DNA from: a bacterium
Lineage (GTDB): Bacteria; Bacteroidota; Ignavibacteria; Kapaibacteriales; UBA7675
Reading direction: 5' to 3'
NCBI GenBank assembly: GCA_030430495.1
Contig: JAUIKM010000008.1
Coordinates: 108,870-172,869 of the forward strand
DNA length: 64,000 bases
The translations under genes were made by a program, and so were the position numbers. This document shows positions 2,354 through 35,299 of this stretch, in pieces (within the stretch, counting starts at the first letter, position 1; every line of letters starts with the position of its first letter). A model generated the notes under the pieces. It made no database searches. It was not told the DNA's origin and was given only the letters and a program-made list of their open reading frames with translations.

Positions 2354-2449
2354 GCGGCGTTAAGTGCCGGTCTTCAGATCAGATACAAGATGTGTGGTTT
2401 AACACACAGCGGCGGGCCGATGTTTTCGGTTCGCCGCTTTTTTGTTGTG
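2354..2449 (+). repeat. 96-bp direct repeat, right copy with terminator
   Basis: Second copy of the 1021-1116 block, including the hairpin and T-tract (2408-2443). After this copy the sequence continues as ordinary intergenic DNA instead of the intron-like sequence, so this copy may represent the uninterrupted site. Confidence 0.95.
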
Positions 2450-2741
2450 GAGTTTTTGCCGGCGGCATGAGCGCTTTGAGCTGCCTGCGGCATCTCAGGC
2501 TCCCTGACTTTTTTGTTGGTTTTTGTGTGCTCATGTGCAGGCTGTTGAGCACGAGGTCTTTTGTGTTTAAGTCGCGGTGCAGGTGCCCGGCGTTTGTCAC
2601 AGGTGGCTATGTTATCCGGCGTTTTGTGAACCGGGAATACGACACTCTGAATTGAGCTGCAAAAGTCGGGAGATTGAGTTCCCGGAGAATGTGGATGTTT
2701 AAACCGAGTCGTCATAGCCTGTTGACTACTTCAGTTAAAGG
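2450..2741. other. Intergenic region with 'CTGACTTTTTTGTTGG' motif
   Basis: No convincing gene. A weak hairpin (GAGCTGCCTG...CAGGCTC) precedes a CTGACTTTTTTGTTGG motif at about 2508-2523, which recurs downstream of other genes in this window. The rest shows nothing recognisable. Confidence 0.4.
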
Positions 2742-3245: not shown

Positions 3246-3256
3246 TGTCTTCAGTC

Positions 3257-4006: not shown

Positions 4007-4024
4007 GGGTTTCCCGTGGAGTCG

Positions 4025-4786: not shown

Positions 4787-4980
4787 ATGTACGTAATTCG
4801 CCGCTTTGCGGCGCGGGCCGCGGAAGGCTTGTGACAGCTGCGACGGCCGACCACGGATAACTCCGTGACAAACAAAAGAAGGAAGCCCACCGAGAGGTGA
4901 GGCGGATTTGTGCGGCCGCCGCAGGCGAGGCGCTCCCGCGCGAACACAAGGCGCAATGGACGATAAAAAAGGAAGCCGGG

Positions 4981-9798: not shown

Positions 9799-10078
9799 GT
9801 CGATCGGGACTGCGGGAAATTCGACGGTGCGCACTCTTTCCGGAACAAGCCGCATCGTCGAAATTCCCGCCGCGGAGCGATGCCCTCCGAGGCCGGGACA
9901 AGCTTTAACGCATAGATTTTCGCTCCCGCTTTAACACAACACGGCGCTTGAAAAACAACACGTGAACTCACGCTTGCACAAACAAGCGCAGGGAGCCTCT
10001 GTGCCTGAAATTCAGAACTGACTGCAAAAGATGATAGATACTAACGCCTGTCTCGAACCCTTTCGGAGGTTTTCCTTT

Positions 10079-16625: not shown

Positions 16626-17891
16626 ATGTATCTTCACTCGCAGCAATACCGGCTGTCGTTAGACGGAGAGCAAATTCAATCTGACTACTCACGGTCGGTT
16701 TGGTATTGGCGGGTAGTAAATTCCGAGAATTCTACCAAAGAGACTTTCCATCGGAACATATTATTATCAAAATGTAGAATCTCAATAAAAAAATCAGTCG
16801 CCCTTGCCCTGGCAGCGGCGACTGTCTGTTTTTGGGCCCTTTCACTCTTGTTTTCATTTTCAGTTCAGGCGCAGTGTGATCCACACAATTGTGATCCTGA
16901 AATCTGGACGTGGGAGACGCGAGTCGTCTATTTATCCGACTTTCCAAACTGCCCGATTGAGCTGGTCTACAAGTTGCGTGTTTGTGATCAAGCTATCACC
17001 GAGCTGCGGCTGGCTGGATTTACTCTGAAACAGGACGATGACCCCGATTGTCAGCAACTCTACGGATACCTCGTCAGTCCGGAGGGCGATGTCAGAATTG
17101 ACAGGTTGAAAACGACATTTGAGGACATGTTCAGTGAGCTGACAATTGACTTGTTCCTTGAATTCTACAATGATCTCCCGTCGGCTCTGCAGGAACAGTA
17201 CCACTGTCCGAACGGATATCGATTGTATCGCGGTTATTGGGATGCATGCCAGAAGTTTCAGGTGTGTTTCTGGTCTTCAGGACCATTTTCCGCCGATTTG
17301 ATAGAATGTGACAACGCAATCTGCTGTTCTGAAGCATTGGAGCTGTGTTACAACCCTGATTCAGGAGAGGTTGAACAAATTTCAACCTACACTCCCGCCG
17401 AAGGCGAAAGTTGCGGCGAGCCCGAAGTTCAGTATTTCGGACCATGCCTGACCTACGGCTGTTTCCCGTTCTGCAATTACGATCCTCAACTGGAACTGCG
17501 CGGTGTCCGGGAGCCGGTTGATCAATCGGGCGAAGAAATTGACCTGTGCGACAAGTCAATTGAGAATATTGAAATAACCGTCGTGGATGGAATTCAGGTT
17601 CTGGTCCAGATGGGACCAGGTTTGAACACTCTTGACAGATCGGTATTGCGCGCTGACTTGTTTGACCTGCTGGGGCGACTACTTGCCTCATCAGGTCCAA
17701 CTGCTGCGAAATTTGATGAACCCCAAATTCAGCTCGATAAACAACTAATTCACTTAAGTCCAGTCGCAGGGGGAGGGGTGCCGGCCATAGGGCAGCCCCT
17801 GTTGCTGGTGTTGCGCCTCACAGATTCGCCGGACGGCAGCATCTCTCGGGATTGCACCGCCGTTCGAAAGCTGATACTGATGCCGGAGTAG
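16626..17891 (+). CDS. Array family A, copy 1 (divergent): exported 16-cysteine protein
   Basis: The leftmost and most divergent A member. The signal-like segment 'FWALSLLFSFSVQAQ' precedes 'CDPHNCDPEIWTWETR', and all 16 cysteines shared by the family are present, plus two extra. The expected family start just before the signal peptide is missing: ATG 16771 is followed at once by TAG, so the frame can only begin far upstream (ATG 16626, no good ribosome binding site). The C-terminus does not carry the conserved CTD of A2-A5; a weak echo ('LRADLFDLLGRLLAS') remains. It may be a decaying or specialised copy. Function unknown. Confidence 0.7.
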   Translation: MYLHSQQYRLSLDGEQIQSDYSRSVWYWRVVNSENSTKETFHRNILLSKCRISIKKSVALALAAATVCFWALSLLFSFSVQAQCDPHNCDPEIWTWETRVVYLSDFPNCPIELVYKLRVCDQAITELRLAGFTLKQDDDPDCQQLYGYLVSPEGDVRIDRLKTTFEDMFSELTIDLFLEFYNDLPSALQEQYHCPNGYRLYRGYWDACQKFQVCFWSSGPFSADLIECDNAICCSEALELCYNPDSGEVEQISTYTPAEGESCGEPEVQYFGPCLTYGCFPFCNYDPQLELRGVREPVDQSGEEIDLCDKSIENIEITVVDGIQVLVQMGPGLNTLDRSVLRADLFDLLGRLLASSGPTAAKFDEPQIQLDKQLIHLSPVAGGGVPAIGQPLLLVLRLTDSPDGSISRDCTAVRKLILMPE

Positions 17892-18331
17892 TCGCTGTAG
17901 CGGTGATGCTCCCTGTTTGCCGAAGTGTCAGGAATCTGAATTGAGGCAAAGTCACAGTAGCGAAGCATCTTTACCGTCAGACACAATCTCCACTAATCTG
18001 GAAGTAATAGACTAAACCGGATATCTCAATTGCATCAGTTGTTGGCACGGATTTGTGGCGTGTGATTCTTAGTGCAATCAAGCCCAAAAAGGCAGGTAAC
18101 GCCATCGTTGAGAAGTATGAAGTGATTGCAATGAGTGATTGACTTTGAAGTCGATAATTTGTATCTACTCGGGCCAGCTCTTTCCTTAAAGAGCGACTGC
18201 CAACAACACAAGTCAATTAATGGTGATTGCACTGCCGCCAAACTTCCATTAATTGATGATCACTTCTCACTGACTTTCAGCGGACGCCCCGCCCAAGACG
18301 CCGGCTGCTTGCACGCATACGGAGATGGAAT
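17892..18331. other. Intergenic region A1-B1
   Basis: No gene. A GATCAC-containing inverted segment (AATTGATGATCACTTC, ~18250) resembles GATCAC sequences found in other gaps of the array. Nothing else is recognisable. Confidence 0.3.
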
Positions 18332-19837
18332 ATGAGTGGAGCAGAGCCACACCTGAATGCAACTTCTTGCATATCTCGGCATTTTAAACAGATTCTGATA
18401 TGTTTGGTGTTGGGACTGGTCGCGGTTCCGCTCTATTCGCAGGACGTGCGTTGGGAGCTCAACTACGAGTCGGAACTTGGCTTCAAGTCGGCCACGCATA
18501 TGGTGCGTACTTCCGACGGGGACATATTGACTACCGGCGGAAATGGCAGCGGTGGGATATATGCTCACCTGACAAAATTATCGCCAACGGGTGAAGTTCG
18601 TTGGGTCTACGAAGCGGGTGATGAAGACTACTACGTCATTCCTCGTTTCTGCCGTGAGATAGAACCTGGCGTTTACCGAATGGAGGCGTTCAGAAACATC
18701 TCGGTTGGGCCGTTTTCACCAAGAGTGCCGTTCATCGTTGATGTTAATGACAAAGGGGAGGAAATCAACTCCAACTTTGACGTTGCGATTGATAATATTC
18801 TTTACAACTCAATTGTTTTCCAGTACGACAAACCGGACGGGTATCGCATTGCCAGTCCGAAGCTCAACACAAATCCGGCGGAAATCACCCTCCGCTTGCT
18901 TGATCACGATGCTGCGTTTGCAGAGAAAAAAGAGGTTCTTAATATTGGCGGCGACTCCGCCATTGTCTTGCTGGAATCAGCGATTCAGGCCGACGATGCG
19001 ATGCTGGTGATGGGGCAAATTGAAGCGCCGGGCAAACGCGGAAATTTCAGTCTGATGAAAATCGACCCGGCAGGGGAACTCATTTGGGACATGCGCTTTT
19101 CACCAGGAGTCCGTTCATGGTCGCGAAAGATGCTTCTAGCCCGCAACGGCAATATTATTCTGGCGGGGAATGCGTACAAAGAAGGCGACAATACGCTCTA
19201 TATCGTACTTATTATGTTAACTTCCGACGGAGAACTCGTATGGGAAAAATACTACGCCGCCAAAGAAATTCAGAGTGTGCATGCTATTCTTGAGACTGAC
19301 GAAAACACCTTTGTAATTCTCGGTTCTGCTGGCATCTACGGTGAATCGGGGAAAATACTGAAAGAAGGCAGCAGCGATGCGTTAATCATCCACATTGGTA
19401 GCGACGGGGCAGTTCTGTGGCAAACAACGTATGGTGTACCTAATGTTTCGGATGTTTTAATGTCCGGTCTTCAATTGGAAGATGGCACATTTATACTTGG
19501 CGGCGTAGGAAAGGGTACACAAATGTTGGTATCTGAAGTGGACATTTTTACTTCCACCGGAGTCGGTGAAACAGATTTGGTGATTGAAAACCACAGCATT
19601 GCACCCAATCCCGTTCAACAGATTGCATCTGTTGACTTCAGTTTGAAACATTCTTCGCACGTCGAGATCGAAATTTACAATGCGACCGGCCAAAAAGTCC
19701 AGCACGAAATGTTTGGTAAGCTGGCAGCCGGATCGCAGCATGTGGACTTGCCTGTTGGCCAACTCGCGGCGGGCACATACTACTATGCAATAGTCGCCAA
19801 TAACAATGTGTTTTACGGCAGTTTTGTTCGATTGTAG
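18332..19837 (+). CDS. Array family B, copy 1: exported repeat (propeller-like) protein with T9SS CTD
   Basis: 501 aa. Signal peptide ends near 'AVPLYSQ'. The body is built of repeated units of the pattern 'DG-hydrophobic-G ... D-DG-hydrophobic-W' ('SDGDILTTGG', 'DPAGELIWDMRFSPG', 'TSDGELVWEKYYAA', 'GSDGAVLWQTTYG'), as in PQQ/delta-60-like beta-propellers. The C-terminus is a T9SS CTD ('SIAPNPVQQIASVDFSL', 'LAAGTYYYAIVANN', ending SFVRL). ATG 18332 has GGAGATGG upstream. Compared with B2-B4 it is the most divergent, parallel to A1. No enzymatic motif is seen; probably a surface or secreted binding/structural protein. Confidence 0.85.
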   Translation: MSGAEPHLNATSCISRHFKQILICLVLGLVAVPLYSQDVRWELNYESELGFKSATHMVRTSDGDILTTGGNGSGGIYAHLTKLSPTGEVRWVYEAGDEDYYVIPRFCREIEPGVYRMEAFRNISVGPFSPRVPFIVDVNDKGEEINSNFDVAIDNILYNSIVFQYDKPDGYRIASPKLNTNPAEITLRLLDHDAAFAEKKEVLNIGGDSAIVLLESAIQADDAMLVMGQIEAPGKRGNFSLMKIDPAGELIWDMRFSPGVRSWSRKMLLARNGNIILAGNAYKEGDNTLYIVLIMLTSDGELVWEKYYAAKEIQSVHAILETDENTFVILGSAGIYGESGKILKEGSSDALIIHIGSDGAVLWQTTYGVPNVSDVLMSGLQLEDGTFILGGVGKGTQMLVSEVDIFTSTGVGETDLVIENHSIAPNPVQQIASVDFSLKHSSHVEIEIYNATGQKVQHEMFGKLAAGSQHVDLPVGQLAAGTYYYAIVANNNVFYGSFVRL

Positions 19838-20179
19838 AATGCCTTGCAAAATCGGATGTCTCAGGTAGAATGCACACTCACCTGACACTTTTTGACTGAA
19901 ATGTCAGCCTGTTGTTGCTGTTTGCACAATGACGTCTGCCGGTAAGGGTTGCAGCTTTCCTATGCTGGGGGCCAATTGGGGCTGCATTGTGTTGAGTATT
20001 GTTGTGCTGTGCAGGGTCAATAGCACCTGGCAGTTCAAGACCGTTGATGGTTTACTTCACTGCTTTAACAATTGAATCTCTGGAATGGCTCCGGTGTGAC
20101 AATAAGCCTGTGGGCGACGGGGTGTGCCTTTACCTGTTTTGTTCTATATAACCCGATTGTATAAATAATGGAGTTTAAA
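19838..20179. other. Intergenic region B1-A2
   Basis: 342 bases without a gene. TTTACCTGTTTTG near 20130 is only a partial match to a TAnnTTTG promoter element. No terminator hairpin with a T-tract was found after B1. Confidence 0.3.
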
Positions 20180-21181
20180 ATGAAAGAAACCTTTAGACCT
20201 GTATTTCTCTTTGCCGGTATCTGCCTGTTTTTACTGTGCTTGAGCGAAATTCATGCAGAGTCATGTGATCCGTTAAATTGTGACCCGGAAAGCTGGACCT
20301 GGAAAACCAGAGTTGTTTACCTTTCTGAATACCCCGACTGTCCAATTGAGGTCGGCTATCGTGAGAGAGTATGCAATGGTCAGGTAGTAGAGATCCGCAT
20401 TTCGAGCTACAGTTTTCTGCCGAGTGATCATCCAGACTGTGAAGCATTCGACAGCGATCAACAGAATCCGGACGGTTCACCCGACTGGGCCACGGTCGGT
20501 CAAAATTTTCGCGATTTGTTTAAACAACTGTCGATTGACCTGTTCGTGGAACTTTATGAAGGCTTTGATCCAGCTGTGCAGGAGCTTTTCCACTGCGGCA
20601 ACGGGATGACCATGCAAGTGTCCGGTGTCTGGGGATCATGTGTTGAGTATGAGGTTTGTTTTAATTTTCCAGAGCCGATTACTTTTTCAATTTCTGAATG
20701 CTCTGATACCTTGTGCTGTTTGCAGCAGACAACTTTTTGCTGGGATCCAGAGAAGGGAGAGCCTGTTGTGGCCGAATCGTTCACCCCAGTGCCAAATGAT
20801 TGCGGTGAACCCACATCGACGCTTGTGTGGCCATGCTACACCTGGGGCTGCGTGCCATTTTGTGAATTCGAGGGCGGCAAGGGTTCCATTAACACGTCCC
20901 CCATCGAAGGTCAATACGGCACAACCTACAACCTGCAGGTCGCTCCAAATCCGGTAGAAGCCGAAGCCACAATTTCGTATTCGCTGAGCGAGCAGATCCA
21001 TGTCGAAATCGTGCTGTTTGACGCATTCGGACGTCAGGTCGCTACCGTGTTCTCCGGACGTCAGTCCAAAGGTGCGCACCGCGTTAACCTGCCGGCTGAA
21101 AACCTCATCAACGGCATGTACACCTTCCAGGTGCGCGCCAACGGTGAGTCGGCAACGGGTTCGGTGATTCTGTCGCGTTAA
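20180..21181 (+). CDS. Array family A, copy 2: exported 16-cysteine protein with T9SS CTD
   Basis: 333 aa from ATG 20180, preceded by GGAG at 6-base spacing (the ATG at 20168 lies before this site). Signal peptide ends near 'SEIHAE'. The mature N-terminal domain (~215 residues) contains 'CDPLNCDPESWTW', 'SCVEYEVC', 'ECSDTLCCLQQTTFC' and 'WPCYTWGCVPFC': 16 cysteines, enough for eight disulfides. The last ~95 residues are the T9SS CTD ('VAPNPVEAEATISYSLSEQ', 'LINGMYTFQVRANG', ending VILSR), very similar in DNA to A3-A5. Exported to the surface or medium. No known enzyme fold recognised. Confidence 0.88.
   Translation: MKETFRPVFLFAGICLFLLCLSEIHAESCDPLNCDPESWTWKTRVVYLSEYPDCPIEVGYRERVCNGQVVEIRISSYSFLPSDHPDCEAFDSDQQNPDGSPDWATVGQNFRDLFKQLSIDLFVELYEGFDPAVQELFHCGNGMTMQVSGVWGSCVEYEVCFNFPEPITFSISECSDTLCCLQQTTFCWDPEKGEPVVAESFTPVPNDCGEPTSTLVWPCYTWGCVPFCEFEGGKGSINTSPIEGQYGTTYNLQVAPNPVEAEATISYSLSEQIHVEIVLFDAFGRQVATVFSGRQSKGAHRVNLPAENLINGMYTFQVRANGESATGSVILSR
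20892..21181 (+). repeat. Conserved CTD-coding module, copy in A2
   Basis: GC-richer 290-base segment that is highly similar in DNA to segments ending A3, A4 and A5, while the upstream parts of these genes are much more diverged. Confidence 0.85.
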
Positions 21182-21581
21182 TGTAGTCCAACGAGTTTGA
21201 GGCGTTGTTAAAGTTGAGTTTCTTCGGATATAGTCGGTGGACAGATTGTGTCCATCGATCAGTTTTGTCGTGTTTGTTTGTGAAAGGGAGGCGAGCTCTC
21301 TGGTGTCGCGCAGAAAGACTTGCCGTTGCACAGTCTGGACCGATGTCGTTTCACTGTCCAGTTGAGAATATTTCGTAGGAGTGCGCTGCGTGGTTGCTTG
21401 AGCGTGAAATCCTACAAAAATATATTTGCAATTTGATTAGAACGCCGATATATTGACGCCGTTGCCGCTGACATATCCCACAAGTGGAGGGGAGTATTAT
21501 TTGGTGGCGGTTTTGAGTGCAGTAGTACTCAATCAGCTAACACCTGGCGTACATTCTGATCACATCAACTACATTACAAAT
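21182..21581. other. Intergenic region A2-B2 with promoter
   Basis: 400 bases before the likely B2 start. Holds the promoter at 21397-21428. No other gene is visible. Confidence 0.4.
21397..21428 (+). promoter_or_regulatory. Bacteroidota-type promoter of B2
   Basis: CTTG, 20 bases, then TATATTTG, which matches the TTTG-N19-21-TAnnTTTG consensus of Bacteroidota vegetative promoters and has the same layout as the rRNA promoter in this window. Confidence 0.65.
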
Positions 21582-23066
21582 ATGCTTTCGTTTACGACGT
21601 TGAAATCGACTATCATTGGCCTGTTTCTTGTTATTGCCGGGATTGTGACTACAGCCGCCGGACAGTCACCCGAAGTTGTGTGGCAGGAGACATACAGATA
21701 CAATGCAGGCAACATGGCGGCGAACTTCCTTGCGCACACCAATGACGGTGATTTCCTGGTTGCCGGAATCATAAATAACAGCGTTACCCACCTGAGCAAA
21801 GTAGCACGTGATGGTGAGTTCCAATGGAGATACACAATTGGGTCTGAAGAAACCTTGACCTATCCAATAGGTTGTTTTGAGAGAGTAGACGGCACATATC
21901 GGCTTGTTGCACTAAAGAATATTGGGATCGGAATTGGTGGAGGAGGCTACAAGTCGCCGTTCATCATAGATTTGAGCGTCGATGGCGACTCGGTATTTGC
22001 AAATTTTGATCCAAAATCAGGTAATCAGGTTAGCGGTTCCAAAGCAGTTTCAGTCGAAGAAGAATTCATCAAAGTAGTTGGCAGCAGACTTGGTGCCAAT
22101 CCGCCGATGCTGGCTGTTGGCACGATGGACAAAGATGCCAATATGCTGGGGTTCAAGGACTATAGTTCGATTGATTCAGACTCGTTACGAACTTTCTGGG
22201 CTGCGCGGTCTTTGAGAGACGGATCACTTGTGGTAGCTGGACAGGTGGAAATTTTGGGTGGAAAGACGCAACTACTCACTCTGTCCAAATTGAACGCGGA
22301 CGATCAGCTGGTATGGGATAAGAGATTTGCTCCAGGATTGCGAAACTGGATGCGGATGATGATCGTGACACAAAGTGGAGAAATTATTCTGGCTTTTAAT
22401 GTAAAAATTGAAGGTGATGATCGAATTCAAATGGCGTTGATGAAGCTCGATCAGAACGGTGAGCAATATTGGCAAGAGTTCTATCCGGTGAGAGATGTCT
22501 CAAATCTGGAATCCGTTTACGAAACGAGTCAGGAGACTCTGGTGCTTGTTGGGTCCGCAGGATTCTACAATAGCAGCAGACAGAGTTTGCAGGAAGGGAG
22601 TTACGATGCGGTTGTTTTGCATGTAGCTGCCGATGGAGAAGAACTCTGGCAAGGAAGCTTGGGCGCTGAAGGAAAAAACGATGCTGCCATGTCTGTGCTG
22701 GAATTGGAGAACAACAATTTCTTACTCGGCGGCTTCTGGAAAGAGACGGATATGTTTCTTGCTGAAATTGACTTGTTTAAGACTACGAACATTGAGTCAA
22801 TGAGAGATGGTTCTCCAACAAGTACGATTGTACCGCAGCCCGTAGCCGGTGCTGCAACGGTGGAAATTCAATTACATTCGGCCGGGATGGTTGAATTGCA
22901 AATCATTGATCATCTTGGGCGCGTATGCTCATATTCGTCTGTCGGGTATCTGCCGTCGGGATCGCACAAAATTGATTTGCCAACGACCAATCTTGCCAGA
23001 GGAACATATCACTATTTGGTGAGTGTCGATAATTTGAATATCTCGGGATCGTTTGTTCGATTGTAA
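21582..23066 (+). CDS. Array family B, copy 2: exported repeat protein with T9SS CTD
   Basis: 494 aa from ATG 21582, which directly starts the signal peptide ('LVIAGIVTTAAGQ'); the frame is open from 21453. Repeats read 'TNDGDFLVAGI', 'NADDQLVWDKRFAPG', 'DQNGEQYWQEFYPV', 'AADGEELWQGSLG' and 'ENNNFLLGGF'. The segment 'GANPPMLAVGTMD' is shared by B2-B4. The CTD ends 'LARGTYHYLVSVDN...SFVRL'. There are almost no cysteines, in contrast to family A. The recurring order A then B suggests the duplicated unit is an A+B pair. Confidence 0.88.
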   Translation: MLSFTTLKSTIIGLFLVIAGIVTTAAGQSPEVVWQETYRYNAGNMAANFLAHTNDGDFLVAGIINNSVTHLSKVARDGEFQWRYTIGSEETLTYPIGCFERVDGTYRLVALKNIGIGIGGGGYKSPFIIDLSVDGDSVFANFDPKSGNQVSGSKAVSVEEEFIKVVGSRLGANPPMLAVGTMDKDANMLGFKDYSSIDSDSLRTFWAARSLRDGSLVVAGQVEILGGKTQLLTLSKLNADDQLVWDKRFAPGLRNWMRMMIVTQSGEIILAFNVKIEGDDRIQMALMKLDQNGEQYWQEFYPVRDVSNLESVYETSQETLVLVGSAGFYNSSRQSLQEGSYDAVVLHVAADGEELWQGSLGAEGKNDAAMSVLELENNNFLLGGFWKETDMFLAEIDLFKTTNIESMRDGSPTSTIVPQPVAGAATVEIQLHSAGMVELQIIDHLGRVCSYSSVGYLPSGSHKIDLPTTNLARGTYHYLVSVDNLNISGSFVRL

Positions 23067-23337
23067 GAAGGATTTGCTCCTATTTGCCGAGAATTGCATT
23101 TGTTTAAGCTTAAACGAAGCCTTGATCACGCTTTGTTTAATTGTTGACGACGTCCTCTACCGTGACAACCCGGTAGAAAACAGCTCGCCTGCATGCAGTT
23201 GAATCCTCTTCTGATTCACATGTTGTTTCCCCAGAGTGGATAAACAGTTCACTCCAGCTCTTCAACAGGCCGTCCGGTGCCAAATTGCGGCACATGGATG
23301 CGCTACCATCTACCATTTCCTAAAAGGAGAATATGAA

Positions 23338-24348
23338 ATGAAGTTCGTCTTATGTCGCATGATTGCGATACTTGCCGTCGTTGTTGTAAGTCAGTGTTTC
23401 ACTGGCCCTGAGGCCGGTGCCGACTGTGATCCGCTCAACTGCAATCCAGCATCTTGGACATCTACGACCAGAACGGTGTACTTGCCTGATTATCCGAACT
23501 GTCCAATTGATGTAGGATATAGATATAGAACTTGTAGCGGTATTATTACAGAAATACGCGTCACAAACTATTCTTTTGATCCATCGGCGGATCCGGATTG
23601 CGCCGATTTGGACAGTGTTCATACCGGTCCAACCGGAGACCCAGCCTGGGGAGTGATCGGACAGACTTTCCAGGAGCTGTTGACACAGTTAACTGAAGAC
23701 CTTTTTGTCGCCCAATATAACCTACTGTCTCAAGCAGATAAGGACAAATTTGATTGTGACACAGGTTCAACAACCAAAACCTATACAGGTGTATGGGGCT
23801 CTTGTGTTGAGTATGAAGTGTGTTACTTGCCCGACGGTTCCTGGGTGGTCACAATATCGGATGAGTGCTCAGACCTTTTATGCTGTCTACAAACCACAAC
23901 GTACTGCTGGGATTCACAAACAAACAGTCCCAATCTGACGGAGACATTTACGCCTGCACAGGATAGTTGCGGCACTCCAACTCTCTCCGGCTCCTGGCCG
24001 TGTTTCACGTACGGCTGCGTCCCGTTCTGCGATTCCGAGTCGTCGAAAGGCTCCAGTCCCACGTCCCCGATCGAAGGCCAATTCGGCGCGATCTACAATC
24101 TTCGCGTCGCGCCGAATCCGGCTGAGGCAGAAGCGACGATCTCCTATTCGCTGAGCGAGCAGACCCAGGTCGAGATCGTGCTGTTTGATTCTTTCGGACG
24201 TGAAGTTGCCACCGTGTTCTCCGGTCGTCAGTCCAAAGGTGCGCACCGCGTCAACTTGCCGTCCGAAAACCTCATTAACGGCATGTACACCTTCCAGGTG
24301 CGCGCGAACGGTGAGTCGGCAGCTGGTTCGGTGATTCTTTCGCGTTAA
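23338..24348 (+). CDS. Array family A, copy 3: exported 16-cysteine protein with T9SS CTD
   Basis: 336 aa from ATG 23338, chosen because AAAAGGAG lies 8 bases before it and a signal peptide starts there ('ILAVVVVSQCFTG'). The cysteine framework is the same as in A2: 'CDPLNCNPASW', 'NCPIDVGYRYRTC', 'SCVEYEVC', 'ECSDLLCCLQTTTYC', 'WPCFTYGCVPFC'. The CTD shares 'DSFGREVATV' with A5, 'RQSKGAH' with A2, and 'ESAAGSVILSR' with A4, a mosaic pattern. A perfect intrinsic terminator follows, so transcription probably stops before B3. Confidence 0.88.
   Translation: MKFVLCRMIAILAVVVVSQCFTGPEAGADCDPLNCNPASWTSTTRTVYLPDYPNCPIDVGYRYRTCSGIITEIRVTNYSFDPSADPDCADLDSVHTGPTGDPAWGVIGQTFQELLTQLTEDLFVAQYNLLSQADKDKFDCDTGSTTKTYTGVWGSCVEYEVCYLPDGSWVVTISDECSDLLCCLQTTTYCWDSQTNSPNLTETFTPAQDSCGTPTLSGSWPCFTYGCVPFCDSESSKGSSPTSPIEGQFGAIYNLRVAPNPAEAEATISYSLSEQTQVEIVLFDSFGREVATVFSGRQSKGAHRVNLPSENLINGMYTFQVRANGESAAGSVILSR
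24060..24348 (+). repeat. Conserved CTD-coding module, copy in A3
   Basis: Same module as in A2, A4 and A5. Its final ~60 bases (the 'RANGESAAGSVILSR' part) are identical with A4. Confidence 0.85.
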
Positions 24349-25034
24349 AACAATTACATCAACCTGATTGTTTTTTTTGTAGTAGAGGCTGATGATTACG
24401 GGCGATCATCAGCCTTTTTGCAATTGTGCAAGGTCGGTTCAGGACGGGAGAGCGCATCCACAGCCGTGATGATCCAAACTGAACTAAACTACTTCATCGA
24501 TCACGTTCTTGCCGCTACTGGTCAAGTTCCTTTGATTTATGAGGGGACAACATAGAAATGTCAAGTAATGCCCGAATAAATCGACAATCAACTGAAAATA
24601 TGTGTACTCCAGGTTCTGTCAAGAAGTGAACGAGCGGACTGGTTTTACAGACGTCATTTGGTGATGAAGCGGGCCGGATGACTGCGCACAATCGTCCACA
24701 ACTGGGCTGCGACACTAGATGTGTCAGTCTTTTTCAAATGGAGAAGCATTCTTTTTATGTTCGGGAATTGGCCAAATTTCGCAAAAAGAGTCGAATTAAG
24801 TCGTACGCATTCATTTCTTCGATGCCGGCAGAAATTGTGGGATTTGTATTTTGCGCAATTCGTAATAAATTGCCGTCCGAATCGAAAAACAGACTTCGTG
24901 TTGCCGCCCATTTCATAAGCCGAAGTTCGCAACCGTATTCCCCCAGCTGATCTGTTCGAGATCGTCGATTCGCAGAACTACTCGGTTTTTTTTACAAATA
25001 ACCATTGATTTCGTGCATTTTCAACCATTGGATT
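24349..25034. other. Intergenic region A3-B3
   Basis: 686 bases. Apart from the terminator at 24386-24419, no supported gene is present; a 90-aa frame at 24678-24950 has no ribosome binding site or recognisable domain. B3's promoter should lie here but was not identified. Confidence 0.4.
24386..24419 (+). terminator. Rho-independent terminator after A3
   Basis: AGGCTGATGAT and ATCATCAGCCT form a perfect 11-bp stem, followed by TTTTT. Confidence 0.92.
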
Positions 25035-26513
25035 ATGAAGCCTAACACTACCTATATTAATAGCCTGGTTGTCATCGTCGGTTTTGTTTTTTCTTCCCTT
25101 CCACTCTTATGTCAGGATTTTGTGTGGAAACAATCCTACGCTGGAGATGCTGGTTACTTTAGTGCTGAATTTCTTGCACCGGCGTCGGACGGAGATTTTC
25201 TTGTTGCGGGTCTTAACGGAGTAGGTGGTACCCATATCAGTAAAGTATCCCCCTCTGGTGATATTCGATGGTCTTATACTGTTGGTGACGAGAAAATTCT
25301 TACCGTCCCGTTGAATTGTTTTGAAACTTCTTCCGGGAGTTACCGGTTGGTCTCGCTGAAGAATATCAGCGTCGGAATTGGTGGCGGTATGCCCAAAGCT
25401 CCATACGTACTGGATGTTAACGAACAGGGAGATTCAACATTTGGAAATTTTGATCCGCAATCCGGGAGCATAGTACAAGGTTCCCGAGCAGTCCAGATTT
25501 CAGACGATGGGATTAAAGTCGTAAGTATTAGATTTGGTTCAAATCCTCCAATGTTTGCAGTTGGAAGCCTTGACAACAACGCAAATCTAAAGGAGTTTGT
25601 TGACTTCCTGCCGGTAGATCAGGATTCAATGCAGACTTTTTGGGCTACTGCAGAACTGTCAGATGGTGGATTGGCAGTGGCGGGGCAAATTGAACTTCCA
25701 GGAGGAGCTACTCAGTTCCTGACTCTGACAAAAGTAGATGCTGACGGCTCACTTGTTTGGGACAAGCGATTTGCCCCTGGAAAGAGAAACTGGATGCGAA
25801 CGATGAGCCAAACTTCAAATGGCGACTTGTTGGTTGTTTCCAATGTTGTGACTGATGAAAACGACTTGATTCAGATTTCACTGATGCGCCTCGACGAGGA
25901 CGGCGAAATAATCTGGCAAAAGAATTATAGCCTGCGAGAACTGGACCGCGTTCAGAATGTTTTTGAAACGAGTGCCGGTACACTTGTGGTTCTCGGCGGG
26001 AGTGGGATGTACAATGATGGCCGCACCGCACTGAGCGAAGGCAGTATGAACGCTTTTGTACTGCATCTGGATGCCGATGGGACTTTGCTGTGGAAAACGG
26101 AATTTGGCGAAGATGGAGCTAATGAATCCACTATGACTTTGTTGGAGTTAAACAATGGCAACTTTCTAATTGGTGGTATCAGTAACGGCGACGATATGTT
26201 TCTCGCAGAGTTGGATATCTTTACACTTACCGGTGTTGAAGATGAGCCAGAAGAAGGTAGAGCGTTGTCGGTTGTGTGCCCTCATCCTGTTTCTGGTCAG
26301 GCCGTTGTTGAGTTCCAATTGGCAAAAGCCGGAAATGCTGAAATGAGATTGTACGATGCCGCAGGGCGTCAGATTGCCATGCAACAATTGGGGTATCTGG
26401 CGGCTGGAGAGCAACAAGTTGAATTACAAGTCGCAGAATTGTCCGCAGGATGTTATTACTACCAGGTCAAAGTTGACCTGGTTGAATTCTTGGGAAGTTT
26501 TGTTAAACAGTAA
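25035..26513 (+). CDS. Array family B, copy 3: exported repeat protein with T9SS CTD
   Basis: 492 aa from ATG 25035. Signal peptide ends near 'SLPLLCQ'. Repeats: 'ASDGDFLVAGLNG', 'DADGSLVWDKRFAPG', 'DEDGEIIWQKNYSL', 'DADGTLLWKTEFG', 'NNGNFLIGGI'. It is closest to B2 and B4 ('GSNPPMFAVGSLD'). The CTD starts near 'VVCPHPVSGQAVVEFQLA' and ends 'GSFVKQ'. No catalytic motif is seen. The ribosome binding site is weak. Confidence 0.87.
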   Translation: MKPNTTYINSLVVIVGFVFSSLPLLCQDFVWKQSYAGDAGYFSAEFLAPASDGDFLVAGLNGVGGTHISKVSPSGDIRWSYTVGDEKILTVPLNCFETSSGSYRLVSLKNISVGIGGGMPKAPYVLDVNEQGDSTFGNFDPQSGSIVQGSRAVQISDDGIKVVSIRFGSNPPMFAVGSLDNNANLKEFVDFLPVDQDSMQTFWATAELSDGGLAVAGQIELPGGATQFLTLTKVDADGSLVWDKRFAPGKRNWMRTMSQTSNGDLLVVSNVVTDENDLIQISLMRLDEDGEIIWQKNYSLRELDRVQNVFETSAGTLVVLGGSGMYNDGRTALSEGSMNAFVLHLDADGTLLWKTEFGEDGANESTMTLLELNNGNFLIGGISNGDDMFLAELDIFTLTGVEDEPEEGRALSVVCPHPVSGQAVVEFQLAKAGNAEMRLYDAAGRQIAMQQLGYLAAGEQQVELQVAELSAGCYYYQVKVDLVEFLGSFVKQ

Positions 26514-26756
26514 ATTTCAATCAATTATTAATCAGGACTACGACTGAGTATTGGCAAACAGGCACTGATCACGCCTAAAGCTGATGCGTAGTTAATGTTT
26601 TACGTGTATGTTCATTTAGCTTCGGACTCCACTGCCAATTTTGTCCGAGCTTGTTTGTCACTAATCGGATTTACTGGTCACTCGTTTCAGTCTGCATTGA
26701 GGCGGGGGCGATCACTGAATTCATTTACCTCTACTTTTTTTCAAGGAGATTATTGT

Positions 26757-27767
26757 ATGAAACGCAATTTCATGCATTTTACGGCTTTCCTGTTAACATG
26801 TTTCGTGATCCATGGGTGGAGCGCACCTACAGCACAAGCTGGTTGTGACCCGCTGGGCTGCGACCCGGGAACCTGGACCCATGCCAGCAGAACGATCTAT
26901 CTGCCAAACTATCCCAATTGTCCAGTAGATGTCGGTTACCAATATCGGACTTGTGCAGGTTTTATCGTTGAGATCCGAGTATACTCATACAGCTACAATC
27001 CCAGCGACGACCCAGACTGCCAGGACCTCGACGATGATACACAAAATCCTGACGGTTCAATTAACTGGGGACAAATAGGTCAAAACTTTCGTGATGTCCT
27101 GACTCAGTTGACAGAGGATTTGTTCATCGATTTCTACAATAACCTGCCTAACCAGACGGCAAAGGATGCGTACGACTGCGAAAATGGTACAACAAGTAAA
27201 ACATATACCGGCGTTTGGGGGTCCTGTGTTGAGTATGAGTTTTGCTTTAACTCACCAGGTCCTTTCACTGTCGAGATTTCCGAATGCTCTGATCTGCTTT
27301 GCTGCCTTCAGGAAACAGTCTACTGCTGGGATTCGCAAACGAATTCTCCCAAGGTGACCGAGAATTTCACCCCCGCTCCGGATGACTGCGGCACCCCTTC
27401 ACTGAGCATCAACTGGCCGTGCATTACCTACGGCTGTGTGCCGTTCTGCGAATACGAAGAGCAAAAAGGCTCCAACAACACGTCTCCGATCGAAGGCCAA
27501 TTCGGCGCAATCTACAATCTTCGCGTCGCGCCGAATCCGGCTGAGGCAGAAGCGACGATCTCCTATTCGCTGGGCGAGCAGACACAGGTCGAAATCGTGC
27601 TGTTTGACTCCTTCGGACGTCAGGTAGCTACCGTGTTCTCCGGTCGTCAGTCCCAGGGTGCACACCGCGTTAACCTGCCGGCTGAAAACCTCATTAACGG
27701 CATGTACACCTTCCAGGTGCGCGCGAACGGTGAGTCGGCAGCTGGTTCGGTGATTCTTTCGCGTTAA
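26757..27767 (+). CDS. Array family A, copy 4: exported 16-cysteine protein with T9SS CTD
   Basis: 336 aa from ATG 26757 with AAGGAG 9 bases upstream; the frame is open from 26595. Signal peptide 'FLLTCFVIHGWSAPTAQA'. Mature part: 'CDPLGCDPGTW', 'NCPVDVGYQYRTC', 'NWGQIGQNFRDVLTQLTEDL', 'SCVEYEFC', 'ECSDLLCCLQETVYC', 'WPCITYGCVPFC'. It is closest to A5 over its whole length. The CTD carries a private 'LGEQ' in place of LSEQ. Probably exported by T9SS together with its B neighbours. Confidence 0.88.
   Translation: MKRNFMHFTAFLLTCFVIHGWSAPTAQAGCDPLGCDPGTWTHASRTIYLPNYPNCPVDVGYQYRTCAGFIVEIRVYSYSYNPSDDPDCQDLDDDTQNPDGSINWGQIGQNFRDVLTQLTEDLFIDFYNNLPNQTAKDAYDCENGTTSKTYTGVWGSCVEYEFCFNSPGPFTVEISECSDLLCCLQETVYCWDSQTNSPKVTENFTPAPDDCGTPSLSINWPCITYGCVPFCEYEEQKGSNNTSPIEGQFGAIYNLRVAPNPAEAEATISYSLGEQTQVEIVLFDSFGRQVATVFSGRQSQGAHRVNLPAENLINGMYTFQVRANGESAAGSVILSR
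27479..27767 (+). repeat. Conserved CTD-coding module, copy in A4
   Basis: Same module as in A2, A3 and A5. The preceding 60 or so bases ('CEYEEQKGSNNTS') are also identical with A5. Confidence 0.85.
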
Positions 27768-28282
27768 AACTCAATACATACGTGAGTGAAACATCTGAGC
27801 GCCACGGCAGCAGTGTTAAAGTCGCAGAGTAAAACAGAACAGTCGACGGGTTTGAAATTCGTCGGCTTATTTTTGTTGAAACTCTTTTCAGAAGGCGTGA
27901 AAAACTGATTTTGCTTTGTACTCAGATTTCCGGATGAAATTTTAGCTGCTCGTGCCAATTGTGTCCGATCTTCCTGATTTTGCGCTGGTTGTGATTTCGC
28001 GAATAGAAAATTTGAGATAAATTTGAATGCCCGTTTCCAGAAAAACCTCGTTTTCAGGGTATATACGTAGGATGTGCGGTTTACTCGGGCAAACGTAAGA
28101 GTTGTGTTATTTGTATAGTTGTAAACTTTATAATATTTTCGATACCAGTTTGAAAAAATGCAGACACGTTTTGCCGCCAGTTTGAGGTCGATCGAGACGA
28201 CCCTGCAATGTTTACCGAGAGCAACTGTAATGGGCCGGGGCCAATGCCGGTCTGTGCAGATTGTCTACAATTGGAAATAGAT
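27768..28282. other. Intergenic region A4-B4
   Basis: 515 bases with a probable terminator at 27842-27875. 'GCCAATTGTGTCCGATCTT' (~27954) resembles 'GCCAATTTTGTCCGAGCTT' (~26634) in the gap before A4. No gene is supported. Confidence 0.35.
27842..27875 (+). terminator. Probable terminator after A4
   Basis: GTCGACG pairs with CGTCGGC (one G-T pair), followed by TTATTTTT. Confidence 0.6.
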
Positions 28283-29803
28283 ATGTGTGTCACATTTGGG
28301 TTGAAACCACTCGCTATTCGCCATCCTGAATTCCAAATTGCTGTTGTTGCCCGCATTTGTACTGCTTTAGCCATTTTGTTGATGCCGGTAGTCGCGTCTT
28401 CTCAGATAGTTGTCTGGGAAAAAACTTATGCCGGCGATCACGGTTACATGTCTGCCGAGTTTATTTCATCAGCGTCGGACGGGGACTTTCTCGTCGCCGG
28501 AGTAGCCAGTGCGGGCGGCAGCATGAGCCACATGAGTAAAGTTTCAGCAACCGGAGAGCTGCGTTGGACACATGAGATTGGTACTGATCAGATTTATACA
28601 ACGCCGCTTGATTGTTTTGAAATTGAGCAGGACAAATACAGGCTCGTCGCGTTGCAGGGAATCAGCGTTGGAGCAGGAACGCCCAAAGGAACATATATCG
28701 TAGATGTCGGAGAATCGGGTGAGGTGGAGTCCGATAATTTTGATCCCGAATTCGGCAATATCCTGTCGAACTCCAAGGCTGTAGCTATTGAAAACGAGGG
28801 GTATCGCGTCGTCAGCTCACGCTTTGGTTCAAATCCACCGATGCTGGCTGTCGGCTATCTGGATGTTAACGCCAACTTTGAGCGCTATGAAGAATTTCTG
28901 GCTCCCAGTCCTGATTCGGCCTGGGTACTTTGGAAAGCCGTTGGAATGCCGGATGGATCGCTTGTTTTCTGCGGACAAATTGGGCAGTTGGGCGGCGCTC
29001 AAATAATGAGTCTTACCAAGCTTGATGCCGATGGGAGTTTGGTCTGGGATAAACGCTACAGCTTGGGAACGAATCACTACGTGCGCAACATGATCCTGCT
29101 GCAGAACGGAGACCTACTTTTGGCGTCCAATATTTCAAGCCAGGAAGATGATTTGATTCGCATTTCTTTACTTCGCGTAGATGCAGATGGAGAGGTTGTA
29201 TGGCACAAAATGCATGCTGTCAGGGAGGTTGCCGGTGTCCGCAATCTTTATGAAACAAGTGAATCGACAATCGTTGCTTTTGGGTCTGCAGGAGTCTATA
29301 ATTCCTCACGCGACGTGATTGAACCTGGAAGTTCGGACGGATTTATTCTGCATGTCGACTCCGGAGGGGAATATCTTTGGAATGGTTTTATCGGTGTCGA
29401 AGGTGAAAGCGACGCAGTGATGAGCATGTACCAATTGGACAACAACAACTTTTTGATCGGCGGCCTCAAAGGCGGCGCTAAAATGTTCCTGGCAGAGTTG
29501 GATTTGTTTACTTCAACAGGAGTAGACAGGGCAACACCAAGAAGCAGGAAAGGCAAATTTTTCCCCAACCCGGTGTCGGATCATGGACGCCTGGAATTCA
29601 TGATGGAAACTGCGCAACCGGCTACGCTGGAAGTCCTCGACCTCATAGGGCGTACAGTCAGCAAGATTGACCTTGGCCACCTTGAAGCGGGAAGGCAGAA
29701 TATTCCGATTGAACTGTCAGATCTGAATGTCAGCCATGGAACATATTACTACCTGGTTTCGACCAAAGATATGGAAGTGACAGGAAGCTTCGTTTACCGG
29801 TAA
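28283..29803 (+). CDS. Array family B, copy 4: exported repeat protein with T9SS CTD
   Basis: 506 aa from ATG 28283 (GGAAATAG upstream); the frame is open from 28208. A hydrophobic signal segment 'ICTALAILLMPVVASSQ' precedes 'VVWEKTYAGDHGYMSAEF'. Repeats: 'ASDGDFLVAGVAS', 'DADGSLVWDKRYSLG', 'DADGEVVWHKMHAV', 'DSGGEYLWNGFIG', 'DNNNFLIGGLKGG'. CTD: 'KFFPNPVSDHGRLEFMM', 'SHGTYYYLVSTKD', ending GSFVYR. It lies between A4 and A5. Function unknown; probable cell-surface or secreted propeller-like protein. Confidence 0.87.
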   Translation: MCVTFGLKPLAIRHPEFQIAVVARICTALAILLMPVVASSQIVVWEKTYAGDHGYMSAEFISSASDGDFLVAGVASAGGSMSHMSKVSATGELRWTHEIGTDQIYTTPLDCFEIEQDKYRLVALQGISVGAGTPKGTYIVDVGESGEVESDNFDPEFGNILSNSKAVAIENEGYRVVSSRFGSNPPMLAVGYLDVNANFERYEEFLAPSPDSAWVLWKAVGMPDGSLVFCGQIGQLGGAQIMSLTKLDADGSLVWDKRYSLGTNHYVRNMILLQNGDLLLASNISSQEDDLIRISLLRVDADGEVVWHKMHAVREVAGVRNLYETSESTIVAFGSAGVYNSSRDVIEPGSSDGFILHVDSGGEYLWNGFIGVEGESDAVMSMYQLDNNNFLIGGLKGGAKMFLAELDLFTSTGVDRATPRSRKGKFFPNPVSDHGRLEFMMETAQPATLEVLDLIGRTVSKIDLGHLEAGRQNIPIELSDLNVSHGTYYYLVSTKDMEVTGSFVYR

Positions 29804-30032
29804 GCTGGGCTGAGCCGCACAGGCTCTTGTATCGTTTTTAAGCGCCGATCACAGCCGGTGAAATAACGTAGTTAACTGAGGACGCGTTCTTCGAGTATAA
29901 TCAGGCGCCACTGCCAAATCAGCCTGATTATGTTAAGCAATGCGGTACTCCATGATCACTCGCAACCGCAAGTTAAGTGCGGCGGCGACGGGGACGTCTT
30001 TTCCCATTTACATTTTATCAGGAGATTATACT

Positions 30033-31040
30033 ATGAAAAGTAACATCTTACGATCACTTGTCATGATTTGCTGTTGTGCCATGATTTATAGTTTTAACAC
30101 AGAAACGGCACGAGCCTGCGACCCGAACAACTGCGATCCGGAAGCGTGGAGTTGGGACACAAGAATTGTGTACCTGCCGAACTATCCCAACTGTCCTGTC
30201 ACTGTCGACTATCAGGTGCGTGAATGCTTTGGTGTTTTGGTTGAAGTCAGAGTGCGCGGCTACAGCGTTTCGCCCAGCGCTGACCCGGATTGCCAGGACT
30301 TGATTGATGACACGCAGAATCCAGACGGCTCCACCAATTGGGGGCAAATAGGTCAAAACTTTCGCGACCTGCAGACGCAGCTTTCAGAAGACCTGTTCGA
30401 GGAGTTTTACAATAACCTGCCAACGCAGGCCGCAAAAGACGTCTATGACTGTGAAACTGGTTCCGGCACTAAAACTTATGCCGGTATCTGGGGTTCGTGC
30501 GTTGAGTATGAATTGTGTTTAAACGACCCCGGTCCGTGGACATTCGAAATAACAGAATGCTCAGATCTGCTCTGCTGTCTGCAGGAAACAGTCGTTTGCT
30601 GGGACTCACAGACCGGTCAACCCAAATCAATTGAAACCTTTACGCCCGCGCCGGACGACTGCGGTACGCCTTCGCTGAGCATCAATTGGCCGTGTCTTAC
30701 CTACGGTTGTGTGCCGTTCTGCGAATACGAAGAGCAAAAAGGCTCCAACAACACGTCCCCGATCGAAGGCCAATTCGGCACGATTTACAATCTGCGCGTC
30801 GCGCCGAATCCGGTTGAGGCAGAAGCGACGATCTCCTATTCGCTGAGCGAGCAGACACAGGTCGAAATCGTGCTGTTTGATTCTTTCGGACGTGAAGTTG
30901 CCACCGTGTTCTCCGGTCGTCAGTCCCAGGGTGCGCACCGCGTCAACCTGCCGGCTGAAAACCTCATCAACGGCATGTACACCTTCCAGGTGCGCGCCAA
31001 CGGTGAGTCGGCAACGGGTTCGGTGATTCTTTCGCGTTAA
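30033..31040 (+). CDS. Array family A, copy 5: exported 16-cysteine protein with T9SS CTD
   Basis: 335 aa from ATG 30033, preceded by AGGAG; the frame is open from 29940. Signal peptide ends near 'NTETARA'. All 16 cysteines are conserved ('CDPNNCDPEAWSW', 'SCVEYELC', 'ECSDLLCCLQETVVC', 'WPCLTYGCVPFC'). The CTD shares 'NPVEAEA' and 'ESATGSVILSR' with A2, 'FGREVATV' with A3, and 'RQSQGAH' with A4. It is the last array gene, closed by a strong terminator. No B partner follows, so the array has one more A than B. Confidence 0.88.
   Translation: MKSNILRSLVMICCCAMIYSFNTETARACDPNNCDPEAWSWDTRIVYLPNYPNCPVTVDYQVRECFGVLVEVRVRGYSVSPSADPDCQDLIDDTQNPDGSTNWGQIGQNFRDLQTQLSEDLFEEFYNNLPTQAAKDVYDCETGSGTKTYAGIWGSCVEYELCLNDPGPWTFEITECSDLLCCLQETVVCWDSQTGQPKSIETFTPAPDDCGTPSLSINWPCLTYGCVPFCEYEEQKGSNNTSPIEGQFGTIYNLRVAPNPVEAEATISYSLSEQTQVEIVLFDSFGREVATVFSGRQSQGAHRVNLPAENLINGMYTFQVRANGESATGSVILSR
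30752..31040 (+). repeat. Conserved CTD-coding module, copy in A5
   Basis: Same module as in A2-A4; amino-acid variants are shared with each of the other three copies in turn. Confidence 0.85.
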
Positions 31041-33591: not shown

Positions 33592-33791
33592 TTTTCCTCC
33601 TTTCTGCCCCTTTTTGCTGACCTTCCTGTTCATCGGCGTCCCGCCGGCCGGAGGGCAAAATGCCCGTCTTGGAATCCTCATTTTTGCTTTAAATGCTCTT
33701 CGCGGCGCATTGCGCCGGCCGTAAGTTTACCCTCGGGGCTGCCGGACACTCCTCTTCCGGCTTTAACTATCATTGTCATGAGGGTACAACC

Positions 33792-35081
33792 ATGAAATCA
33801 TTTCTACGACTGCTGCGCAGTGTGAATTTGCTGTGTGCGGCTGCATTGCTGCTGTTGTGCGGCGCGCCGCACGCACAGGCGCAGTGGACCAACGTCGGAA
33901 TCTCCGGCTTTGAATCACCCGTCTACTACGCGGCCGGCACGGCCGACGGCCAGCTGCACGTTCTCGGCTGGAACGGCGCGACGTCCTACCTGGCGTACAG
34001 CCCGGACCGCGGCGAGTCCTGGGACGTCATAACAATCGAAAACACATTCATGTTCGGTCTTGAACAACTGGATAACGGACTGCTGCTGGTGTGCGGACAC
34101 ACGCTCACCGAATCCGCCGGTTTGCTCATGGTCGGCACCGGGCTGGATGACCTCGAAGGCGACGTGTTTGACGGTGCGGGGACCGGCTCTTTTGGTTTTT
34201 ACCGCGTGGAGTTTCTGAACGACGACTTCGGCTACATGTGCGGCTACGACGGCGCCATTCTGAACACGACGGACGGCGGCGGCAGCTGGACGCGCGGCGA
34301 GACCAACAGCGAGACGACGGTCTTCCGCAACATTACGATCGGCAGCGATCAGGTGGCTCTGGCTGCCGGCGGCGCGTCCTTTTTCCAGATGACGGAACTG
34401 TGGCGCACGACGGACGGCGGTGCGACCTGGTCGATCCTGCACGACTACGGCTCGGCCAACTCCATCACCGAAATTCAGATGCTCAACGAAAACACGGCGC
34501 TGATGACCGGCAGCGAGGACGGCGTGCAGTACATCCGCGTTTCACAGGATGCCGGCCAGACCTGGACGCAGGTGTTTGAAGATACGGACAACGCCAATCC
34601 CGTTTTCTACGATCTGGAAATTGCGCCCAACGGCGTGGGTATTGCCGCCGGCGACGCCGGTGAGTGTGCCGTGACGAACGACTTCGGCATGACCTGGCGG
34701 AAGCTGCCGCGTCAGACGGCCGTGTCGCTCGGCGGATGCGCCGTCGACGGCAACTACTCCGTTTACATGTTCGGCTCCGGCGGGGTAGGCTGGCGTTATG
34801 ACGCATCCGTCACCGGCGTGGACGAAACCACGGCGCAGACCGGCGCGACGAAGATCATACCGAATCCGCTGACGGAAAACGGTCGTCTGCAGACCACGGT
34901 TGCGGCCGATGGTCCGGTGCAGTTGCGCATTTACGACGTCCGCGGTCGGCTGGTGCGGGAACTCGGGAACACAGCTCGCGACTTCGCGCTTGATCACGCG
35001 CAGTTCACTCCCGGCATGTATGTTTTTCACATGCTGCGGGACGGCAAGATCATCGACTCGGGGTCGTTTGCGGTGCGTTGA
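33792..35081 (+). CDS. Secreted BNR/Ycf48-type beta-propeller protein with T9SS CTD, copy 1
   Basis: 429 aa from ATG 33792, which begins the signal peptide ending 'APHAQAQ'. BNR/Asp-box-like repeats are visible ('AYSPDRGESWDV', 'LNTTDGGGSWTRG', 'LWRTTDGGATWSIL', 'RVSQDAGQTWTQV', 'AVTNDFGMTWRKL'). The CTD starts near 'KIIPNPLTENGRLQTTV' and ends 'GSFAVR'. It is a paralogue of the next gene with nearly the same length. No sialidase catalytic residues are evident, so a structural or binding role outside the cell is more likely. Confidence 0.88.
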   Translation: MKSFLRLLRSVNLLCAAALLLLCGAPHAQAQWTNVGISGFESPVYYAAGTADGQLHVLGWNGATSYLAYSPDRGESWDVITIENTFMFGLEQLDNGLLLVCGHTLTESAGLLMVGTGLDDLEGDVFDGAGTGSFGFYRVEFLNDDFGYMCGYDGAILNTTDGGGSWTRGETNSETTVFRNITIGSDQVALAAGGASFFQMTELWRTTDGGATWSILHDYGSANSITEIQMLNENTALMTGSEDGVQYIRVSQDAGQTWTQVFEDTDNANPVFYDLEIAPNGVGIAAGDAGECAVTNDFGMTWRKLPRQTAVSLGGCAVDGNYSVYMFGSGGVGWRYDASVTGVDETTAQTGATKIIPNPLTENGRLQTTVAADGPVQLRIYDVRGRLVRELGNTARDFALDHAQFTPGMYVFHMLRDGKIIDSGSFAVR

Positions 35082-35123: not shown

Positions 35124-35151
35124 GGGGCCGGACCGTGACGCATCCGGTCCC
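35124..35151 (+). terminator. Hairpin between the two BNR genes
   Basis: GGGGCCGGA pairs with TCCGGTCCC around a 10-base loop. There is no T-tract directly after it, so terminator activity is uncertain. Confidence 0.35.
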
Positions 35152-35299
35152 GTTGTTAACAAAAAAGCCTGAACGCAGTTGGAACCTTCACCTCATTTTG
35201 AGCTGCTGTCGCCCGCGGTACAACTCTGTGGGCAACTGCCGCTGCACTCCTGCGCCACAACCGGCAGCCGGGGTTCGGAACTCAACTGTAAGGATTCCC

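Follow-up and report, generated by a model that had tools for sequence, protein, structure and literature searches.

An alternating array of cysteine-rich and propeller genes in an Ignavibacteria genome, and the recurrence of A-propeller gene pairs in related genomes

Why should two gene families be kept in strict alternation along one strand, and do their products act together? The locus that raises this question lies in a 64,000-nucleotide stretch (the window) of contig JAUIKM010000008.1 of an Ignavibacteria genome (assembly GCA_030430495.1; 5.6 Mb in 80 contigs). Nine open reading frames (ORFs) on the + strand at 16626-31040 follow the order A1-B1-A2-B2-A3-B3-A4-B4-A5, just as a preliminary description of the window had stated, with A a cysteine-rich family and B a repeat protein of propeller-like pattern. 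The spacing of the A cores was 3158 to 3419 bases, in agreement with the described unit length of 3.2-3.4 kb. At slightly better than even odds (about 0.55), we favour the reading that A docks onto a propeller encoded by the neighbouring gene and secreted by the type IX secretion system (T9SS), the two making up a single complex at the cell surface, and that the array is a set of diverged versions of this pair.

The array

The genes are listed below with their C-terminal sorting domains (CTDs); coordinates of the B genes are those of the longest ORFs.

16626-17891, + strand: A1, cysteine-rich A domain with a 133-residue tail without detectable T9SS CTD
18332-19837, + strand: B1, predicted delta-60/PQQ-type propeller with a T9SS type A CTD (Pfam 34.0 bits)
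20180-21181, + strand: A2, A domain and CTD (about 20936-21178), start at MK, longest ORF from 20168
21453-23066, + strand: B2, predicted propeller, CTD 15.7 bits, below the Pfam cut-off
23338-24348, + strand: A3, A domain and CTD (about 24103-24345), longest ORF from 23236
25005-26513, + strand: B3, propeller (PQQ_2 27.9 bits) and CTD (27.4 bits), 25113-26255 modelled
26757-27767, + strand: A4, A domain and CTD (about 27522-27764), mature core 26838-27464 modelled, longest ORF from 26595
28208-29803, + strand: B4, predicted propeller, CTD 24.2 bits, below the Pfam cut-off
30033-31040, + strand: A5, A domain and CTD (about 30795-31037), longest ORF from 29940

The likely starts of A2-A5 are internal ATGs (MK) that lie 3' of the longest-ORF starts and have GGAG-like sites before them; no comparable MK start was seen in A1. 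Full-length matches to the array A and B profiles in the source genome fell in the array only (one search scored 150 of 237 candidates).

Neighbours of A genes in other genomes

Whether A has its partner as a neighbour more often than chance was examined outside the source genome's own family (f1), where 79 regions in 39 genomes were fetched from the strongest matches listed and 75 A loci were scored. Left out were L136 (an A frame with no downstream gene before the contig end), L149 and L171 (no A frame above 35 bits) and L172 (region cut), and among the scored loci 4 had no downstream gene and 10 no upstream gene, giving samples of 71 and 65. With propellers called by our own profile or by Asp-box motifs, 58 of 71 loci had a propeller gene on the A strand directly downstream. 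The same call fell on 2 of 65 upstream genes and on 5 of the 127 other genes in these regions; allowing the second gene raises the downstream count to 60. A shared its strand with 69 of the 71 downstream genes and with 39 of the 65 upstream ones. The gap between A and propeller had a median of 60 bases (59 pairs) and was 150 or less in 56 of the 59. Pfam (E 1e-3) matched PSII_BNR in 45 of the 71 downstream proteins, Sortilin-Vps10 in 43, BNR in 37 and Por_Secre_tail in 34; among the 65 upstream proteins BNR was matched in 2, Sortilin-Vps10 in 2 and Por_Secre_tail in 9, and PSII_BNR was absent among the 25 of 80 families listed.

These neighbours show that the partner of A need not be B. The neighbour of most A genes is a propeller of BNR/YCF48 type, and propellers of the FG-GAP, Reg_prop or delta-60 classes adjoin some others; A is the constant element and the propeller type is the variable one. 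The preliminary description had taken the pair for the unit of selection, and the A-propeller pair does recur far beyond the array, though strict alternation alone would not show a unit of selection.

Co-duplication and fusions

A pair was used if it showed three or more Asp-box motifs or matched our own profile at 20 bits, and if the partner was at least 300 residues long. Paralogues were compared within one genome, which removes the effect of the species tree. Similarity between A paralogues followed that between their propellers with a rho of 0.85 (52 pairs, 46 comparisons, 15 genomes), while within-genome shuffles of partners gave a mean rho of 0.52 and reached 0.85 in 1 of 2000 cases, and in 2 of 2000 on repeat. 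When A similarity was held below 0.35 (34 comparisons) rho was 0.66, with 2 of 2000 shuffles as high, and below 0.25 (30 comparisons) it weakened to 0.51, with 26 of 2000 as high. Seven of the 14 closest comparisons had both upstream neighbours available, and in each of them these neighbours were unalike (similarity 0.02-0.04). The A and propeller genes duplicate as one unit, without the upstream neighbour.

In four proteins (L143, L158, L177 and L129) an A domain stands behind a DUF7948 region. An SBBP repeat exceeded its cut-off in the L158 fusion only, and a CTD match was found in three of the four frames, the fourth being cut by the contig end. Another long A protein occurs at L134, in which Pfam finds a CTD only.

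Family A

Sixteen invariant cysteines had been described for A, and exactly 16 stand in the five-row alignment. None of 46 A domains matched Pfam at 1e-3, and NCBIfam gave no match for A1 and, for A2-A5, matches confined to the CTD. The two families had been called undescribed, which holds for the A head, without any family match, but not for B, an ordinary propeller type with many relatives. An AlphaFold2 model of the A4 core, built from a 93-row alignment, is made mostly of strands with helices in the middle (predicted local distance difference test, pLDDT, 93.1; predicted template modelling score, pTM, 0.89). It had no convincing structural relative in the PDB or in BFVD (viral), and the A sequence profile reached a best E of only 0.41 against the PDB; such a lack of relatives does not prove that the modelled fold is new. 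An anti-phage defence role was set aside, as the PADLOC defence models gave no match in the four proteins scanned (A1, A4, B3 and B4).

At 1e-5 the broad A profile had matches in 73 of the 391 class genomes searched, 62 of them in the source genome's own order (source genome included) and 11 others; eight candidates were scored per genome, so that counts per genome are lower bounds. In a phylum sample of 395 genomes 25 matched at 1e-7, every one within the order or class. The source genome itself has 19 A matches, and a search of 123 genomes from the order gave matches at 1e-3 in 57, where the weak rows are in part probably due to chance. Searches of 5.8 billion proteins, limited by shared words, returned at least 17 proteins with the first A profile and at least 22 with a broader one. 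No relative was found when GTDB 220 contigs were scanned with the array A alignment (the source genome may have been left out there), and the order-level A alignment gave four loci, named as Bacteroidetes or Ignavibacteria metagenome bins. A cysteine-rich domain of about 200 residues, with no match in the curated libraries searched and no solved relative detected, is a recurrent theme of putative surface genes in the order.

Family B

The B ORFs are cysteine-poor, as described, with 2 to 7 cysteines each and a shared repeat pattern. The prediction for B is a delta-60/PQQ-type propeller with seven blades. The AlphaFold2 model of B3 contains 28 strands, taken as seven four-stranded blades in a circular array. 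The PQQ_2 match of B3 lies just over its cut-off of 27.6 bits; B1 matched the delta-60 repeat at 34.2 bits (E 1.6e-8), below the model cut-off of 76.5. A search with the B profile found 181 proteins. The nearest solved fold is the propeller domain of CylK (7ron, 7fh6), to which B also has a significant sequence match. CylK-like chemistry was considered for B and set aside: CylK matches B via the propeller only (residues about 247-656), and the B ORFs have no room for the N-terminal domain of CylK after signal, propeller and CTD.

Sorting domains and the type IX system

B1-B4 and A2-A5 had all been described as ending in T9SS CTDs. This is clear for six of the eight, A2-A5 (29.9 to 31.3 bits), B1 and B3, which exceed the Pfam cut-off of 27, and is probable only for B2 and B4. 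The A1 tail gave 2.7 bits and an hhalign probability of 1.3%. T9SS machinery is present in the source genome, with PorU (NF033707, 872.5 bits, cut-off 420) and SprA_N (138.7 bits, cut-off 27). Among the matches listed from the literature on T9SS, propellers and Ignavibacteria, the excerpts describe no constant cysteine-rich domain paired with interchangeable propellers. Propellers are mentioned there for the T9SS machinery component PorE/PG1058, and excerpts of one paper report that SprF and PorG are disulphide-bonded to GldK (PMC12635249).

History of the array

Both families are at or near saturation at synonymous sites (proportion of synonymous differences, pS, 0.69 to 0.85 in A heads and 0.77 to 0.81 in B cores). 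Synonymous divergence (dS) in the CTDs of A2-A5 is just 0.16 to 0.57. These CTDs belong to a homogenised tract, given here for A5:

30747-31040, + strand: homogenised tract in A5, with counterparts at the 3' ends of A2, A3 and A4

The tract starts close to where the A head ends. In steps of 60 columns, nucleotide identity within it is 87-100% for pairs among A3-A5 and 75-100% for pairs with A2, and falls to 28-63% at and past the stop codon. Most simply, this would reflect gene conversion confined to the sorting domain of A. No comparable homogenisation was found in the B CTDs.

A B3 relative, P0035, is 84% identical to B3, while B1-B4 are mutually about 32-51% identical; since P0035 is closer to B3 than the array B proteins are to one another, the array had probably formed before that split. 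P0004, an A relative (73%), and P0037, a B relative, are both listed with a longest contig of 106538 and probably lie on one contig. Two array trees, with 1 of 10 inner branches starred, do not decide which pair was duplicated, A-B or B-A.

Other A loci in the source genome and in G104

Four A paralogues of the source genome with a CTD (by Pfam or our own profile) adjoin a YCF48/BNR propeller gene, which was called by Pfam at L021 and L023 and by our own profile at L059 and L060. At L022, L056 and L057 a small Asp-box-like protein lies between two CTD-less A genes, followed by a long protein; the small protein of L022 and L056 matched Sortilin-Vps10 below the cut-off, and the long one carries PKD and Ig_7 domains in L022 and L056, the cut frame of L057 having no Pfam match. 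A Reg_prop protein lies directly downstream of A at L061 and at two loci (L067 and L068) of G104, a second genome of family f1, which also has one B-type B-A pair (L063).

Several other features were observed at these loci. L062 (6663-9044) encodes a 793-residue protein with two tandem A domains, Peptidase_S74 and a CTD below the cut-off, with no propeller neighbour seen. Three similar A genes with CTDs by our own profile stand in a row at L065 of G104 (7653-11363), none beside a propeller. Near the pair at L023 (1905-12743) two similar large proteins that look membrane-type by eye are encoded on the other strand (1905-5051 and 9672-12743). L021 (1557-13785) contains two similar cassettes, each with a YD/RHS-like protein (by eye) of 1660-1692 residues followed by a near-identical 226-residue protein with a CTD by our own profile.

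Transcription signals and other genes of the window

In the array each B is separated from the next A by 229 to 342 bases, and each A from the next B by 271 to 656. Terminator-like sites in the region numbered 20 (15.8 in shuffles, standard deviation 3.6) and sigma-70-like sites 23 (17.2 in shuffles), both near the shuffle counts. Two stems, which are consensus matches only, follow A genes:

21233-21259, + strand: terminator-like stem of 11 pairs after A2
27841-27867, + strand: terminator-like stem of 12 pairs after A4

The motif TANNTTTG, a Bacteroidetes -7 motif, occurs upstream of A1, B2 and B4 (two at B4) and in none of the four B-to-A gaps. Its placement is suggestive at most, because it occurs 26 times over both strands of the window.

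Just past the array are two BNR/YCF48-type propeller genes (33693-35081 and 35135-36592) with no A gene directly adjoining; the first has a CTD of 24.2 bits, below the Pfam cut-off, and the second none by Pfam. They are followed by two adjacent flagellin genes (36795-37712 and 37988-38902; Flagellin_N and Flagellin_C). Elsewhere in the window, 10031-13036 encodes a 1001-residue protein with an internal repeat of two halves of about 480 residues, whose CTD-like end scored 88 bits against a profile built in part from this same protein.

A proposed role for the pair, and its alternatives

We would expect the A gene to yield an exported disulphide-rich domain, and the propeller encoded by the neighbouring gene to be secreted by the type IX system. 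A would then dock on the propeller to give a two-protein complex at the cell surface, in which the propeller might supply a variable binding face and A a constant, disulphide-locked partner; the array would likely be a set of diverged versions of this pair. Outside family f1 a CTD is recognisable on a quarter of the A proteins and on about half of the downstream ones, so A may often be carried or retained via the propeller. A bolder proposal, which we hold tentatively and at somewhat worse than even odds, makes A the founder of a new fold and of a clade-wide two-part surface system, in which it would be the common partner of at least four propeller classes (BNR/YCF48, delta-60/PQQ, FG-GAP and Reg_prop), would be fused to SBBP/DUF7948 proteins, and would give each genome a repertoire of A-propeller receptors of differing specificity.

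Several observations weigh against such a complex. Linkage alone explains the co-duplication of adjacent genes, which therefore argues for a stable unit and not for an interface, and the loci come from related genomes, so the neighbour counts are not independent events. A tight interface would be expected to resist the change of partner class seen from lineage to lineage. The array has wider gaps than those between A and propeller elsewhere, and its terminator- and promoter-like sites hint at a transcription unit in which B precedes A, whereas A is first outside family f1. At 11 of 71 loci no propeller was found by our rule in the first two downstream genes. A scan of eight proteins (seven downstream genes and the upstream gene of L108) showed among these exceptions two FG-GAP proteins, one sub-threshold propeller match, one FGE-sulfatase-like protein and one RHS-repeat protein; in the other exceptions no propeller was seen or no individual scan was made. 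In family f1, A is without a propeller neighbour at L062 (the tandem-A protein), L065 (the three similar A genes) and L069 (one A gene), and the long neighbour at L058 has just a weak propeller match. Propellers also exist without A, only 4 of the 18 PSII_BNR frames in the source genome adjoining an A. The preliminary description had named independent occurrence of A and B as grounds for giving up the idea of a pair; this was found for propellers, while A mostly keeps one beside it.

A and the propeller might instead be two unrelated surface cargoes with a shared promoter, held together by co-regulation and linkage and not by contact, an explanation that we consider rather unlikely. Linkage alone would yield the co-duplication, and the wide intergenic gaps in the array and the varying partner classes fit as well. 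It does not readily account for the strong asymmetry between downstream and upstream genes over 39 genomes or for a pair kept at deep divergence while the upstream genes differ, and the DUF7948/SBBP fusions ask for more than a common promoter.

We judge it improbable that A is a dedicated folding or export helper of the propeller that stays outside the final surface complex. A is first in the gene order outside family f1, and most A proteins there have no recognisable CTD: Por_Secre_tail was matched in 19 of the 75, whereas 34 of the 71 downstream partners have it. A helper of this kind is at odds with the CTDs over the cut-off on A2-A5 and on the A paralogues of L021 and L023, which would bring A to the surface, and with the fusions behind DUF7948, where the CTD is matched in most frames.

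The pair might also form a split enzyme whose active site lies between the two proteins, in the manner of CylK, in which catalytic residues come from two domains, with Arg105 in the N-terminal one (excerpts of PMC8916777). This is very improbable: B has no counterpart of that calcium-binding N-terminal domain, CylK is absent among the 50 rows listed for A, and the sequence match to B falls in the repeated blade motifs. That the wide A superfamily is an artefact of cysteine-rich profiles, with only the array members related, is hardly credible, for although the weakest rows of the order search (1e-3) are partial, cysteine-driven matches, several in frames of 240-250 residues, and may be unrelated, the counted rows (about 1e-19 or better) share non-cysteine motifs (W, NxMxF and WRV...CW), the 93-row alignment folds the array member A4 at pLDDT 93, and the gene context is conserved.

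The coupling of A to propeller genes makes a set of hypothetical proteins a testable two-component system and gives a handle on the role of many T9SS propellers.

Comparison with known systems

The array proteins resemble T9SS type A cargo (Por_Secre_tail, TIGR04183/PF18962) in the CTDs over the cut-off on A2-A5, B1 and B3 and in the presence of PorU and SprA_N in the genome; they differ in the A head, for which the family libraries that were searched gave no match. BNR/Asp-box and YCF48-like propellers (PF14870, PF02012) are by sequence the usual downstream partner of A, whereas the B proteins of the window are of the delta-60/PQQ type. YCF48 itself acts in photosystem II assembly, which is irrelevant to the A-propeller pairs.

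In sortilin (Vps10p) a propeller is packed with a disulphide-rich 10CC module, and many partners of A match the Sortilin-Vps10 profile. That match probably comes from Asp-box repeats, and the 10CC module sits on the propeller's own chain. SusC-SusD of Bacteroidota differs in its proteins, and no Pfam match to a TonB-dependent barrel or SusD was found in A1-A5 or B1-B4. The likeness is in genomic logic only: SusC-SusD genes, too, are found in many copies in one genome, always as a paired unit, in their case at the outer membrane. The A-propeller pairs offer a case in which one presumably exported partner keeps company with several propeller sequence classes.

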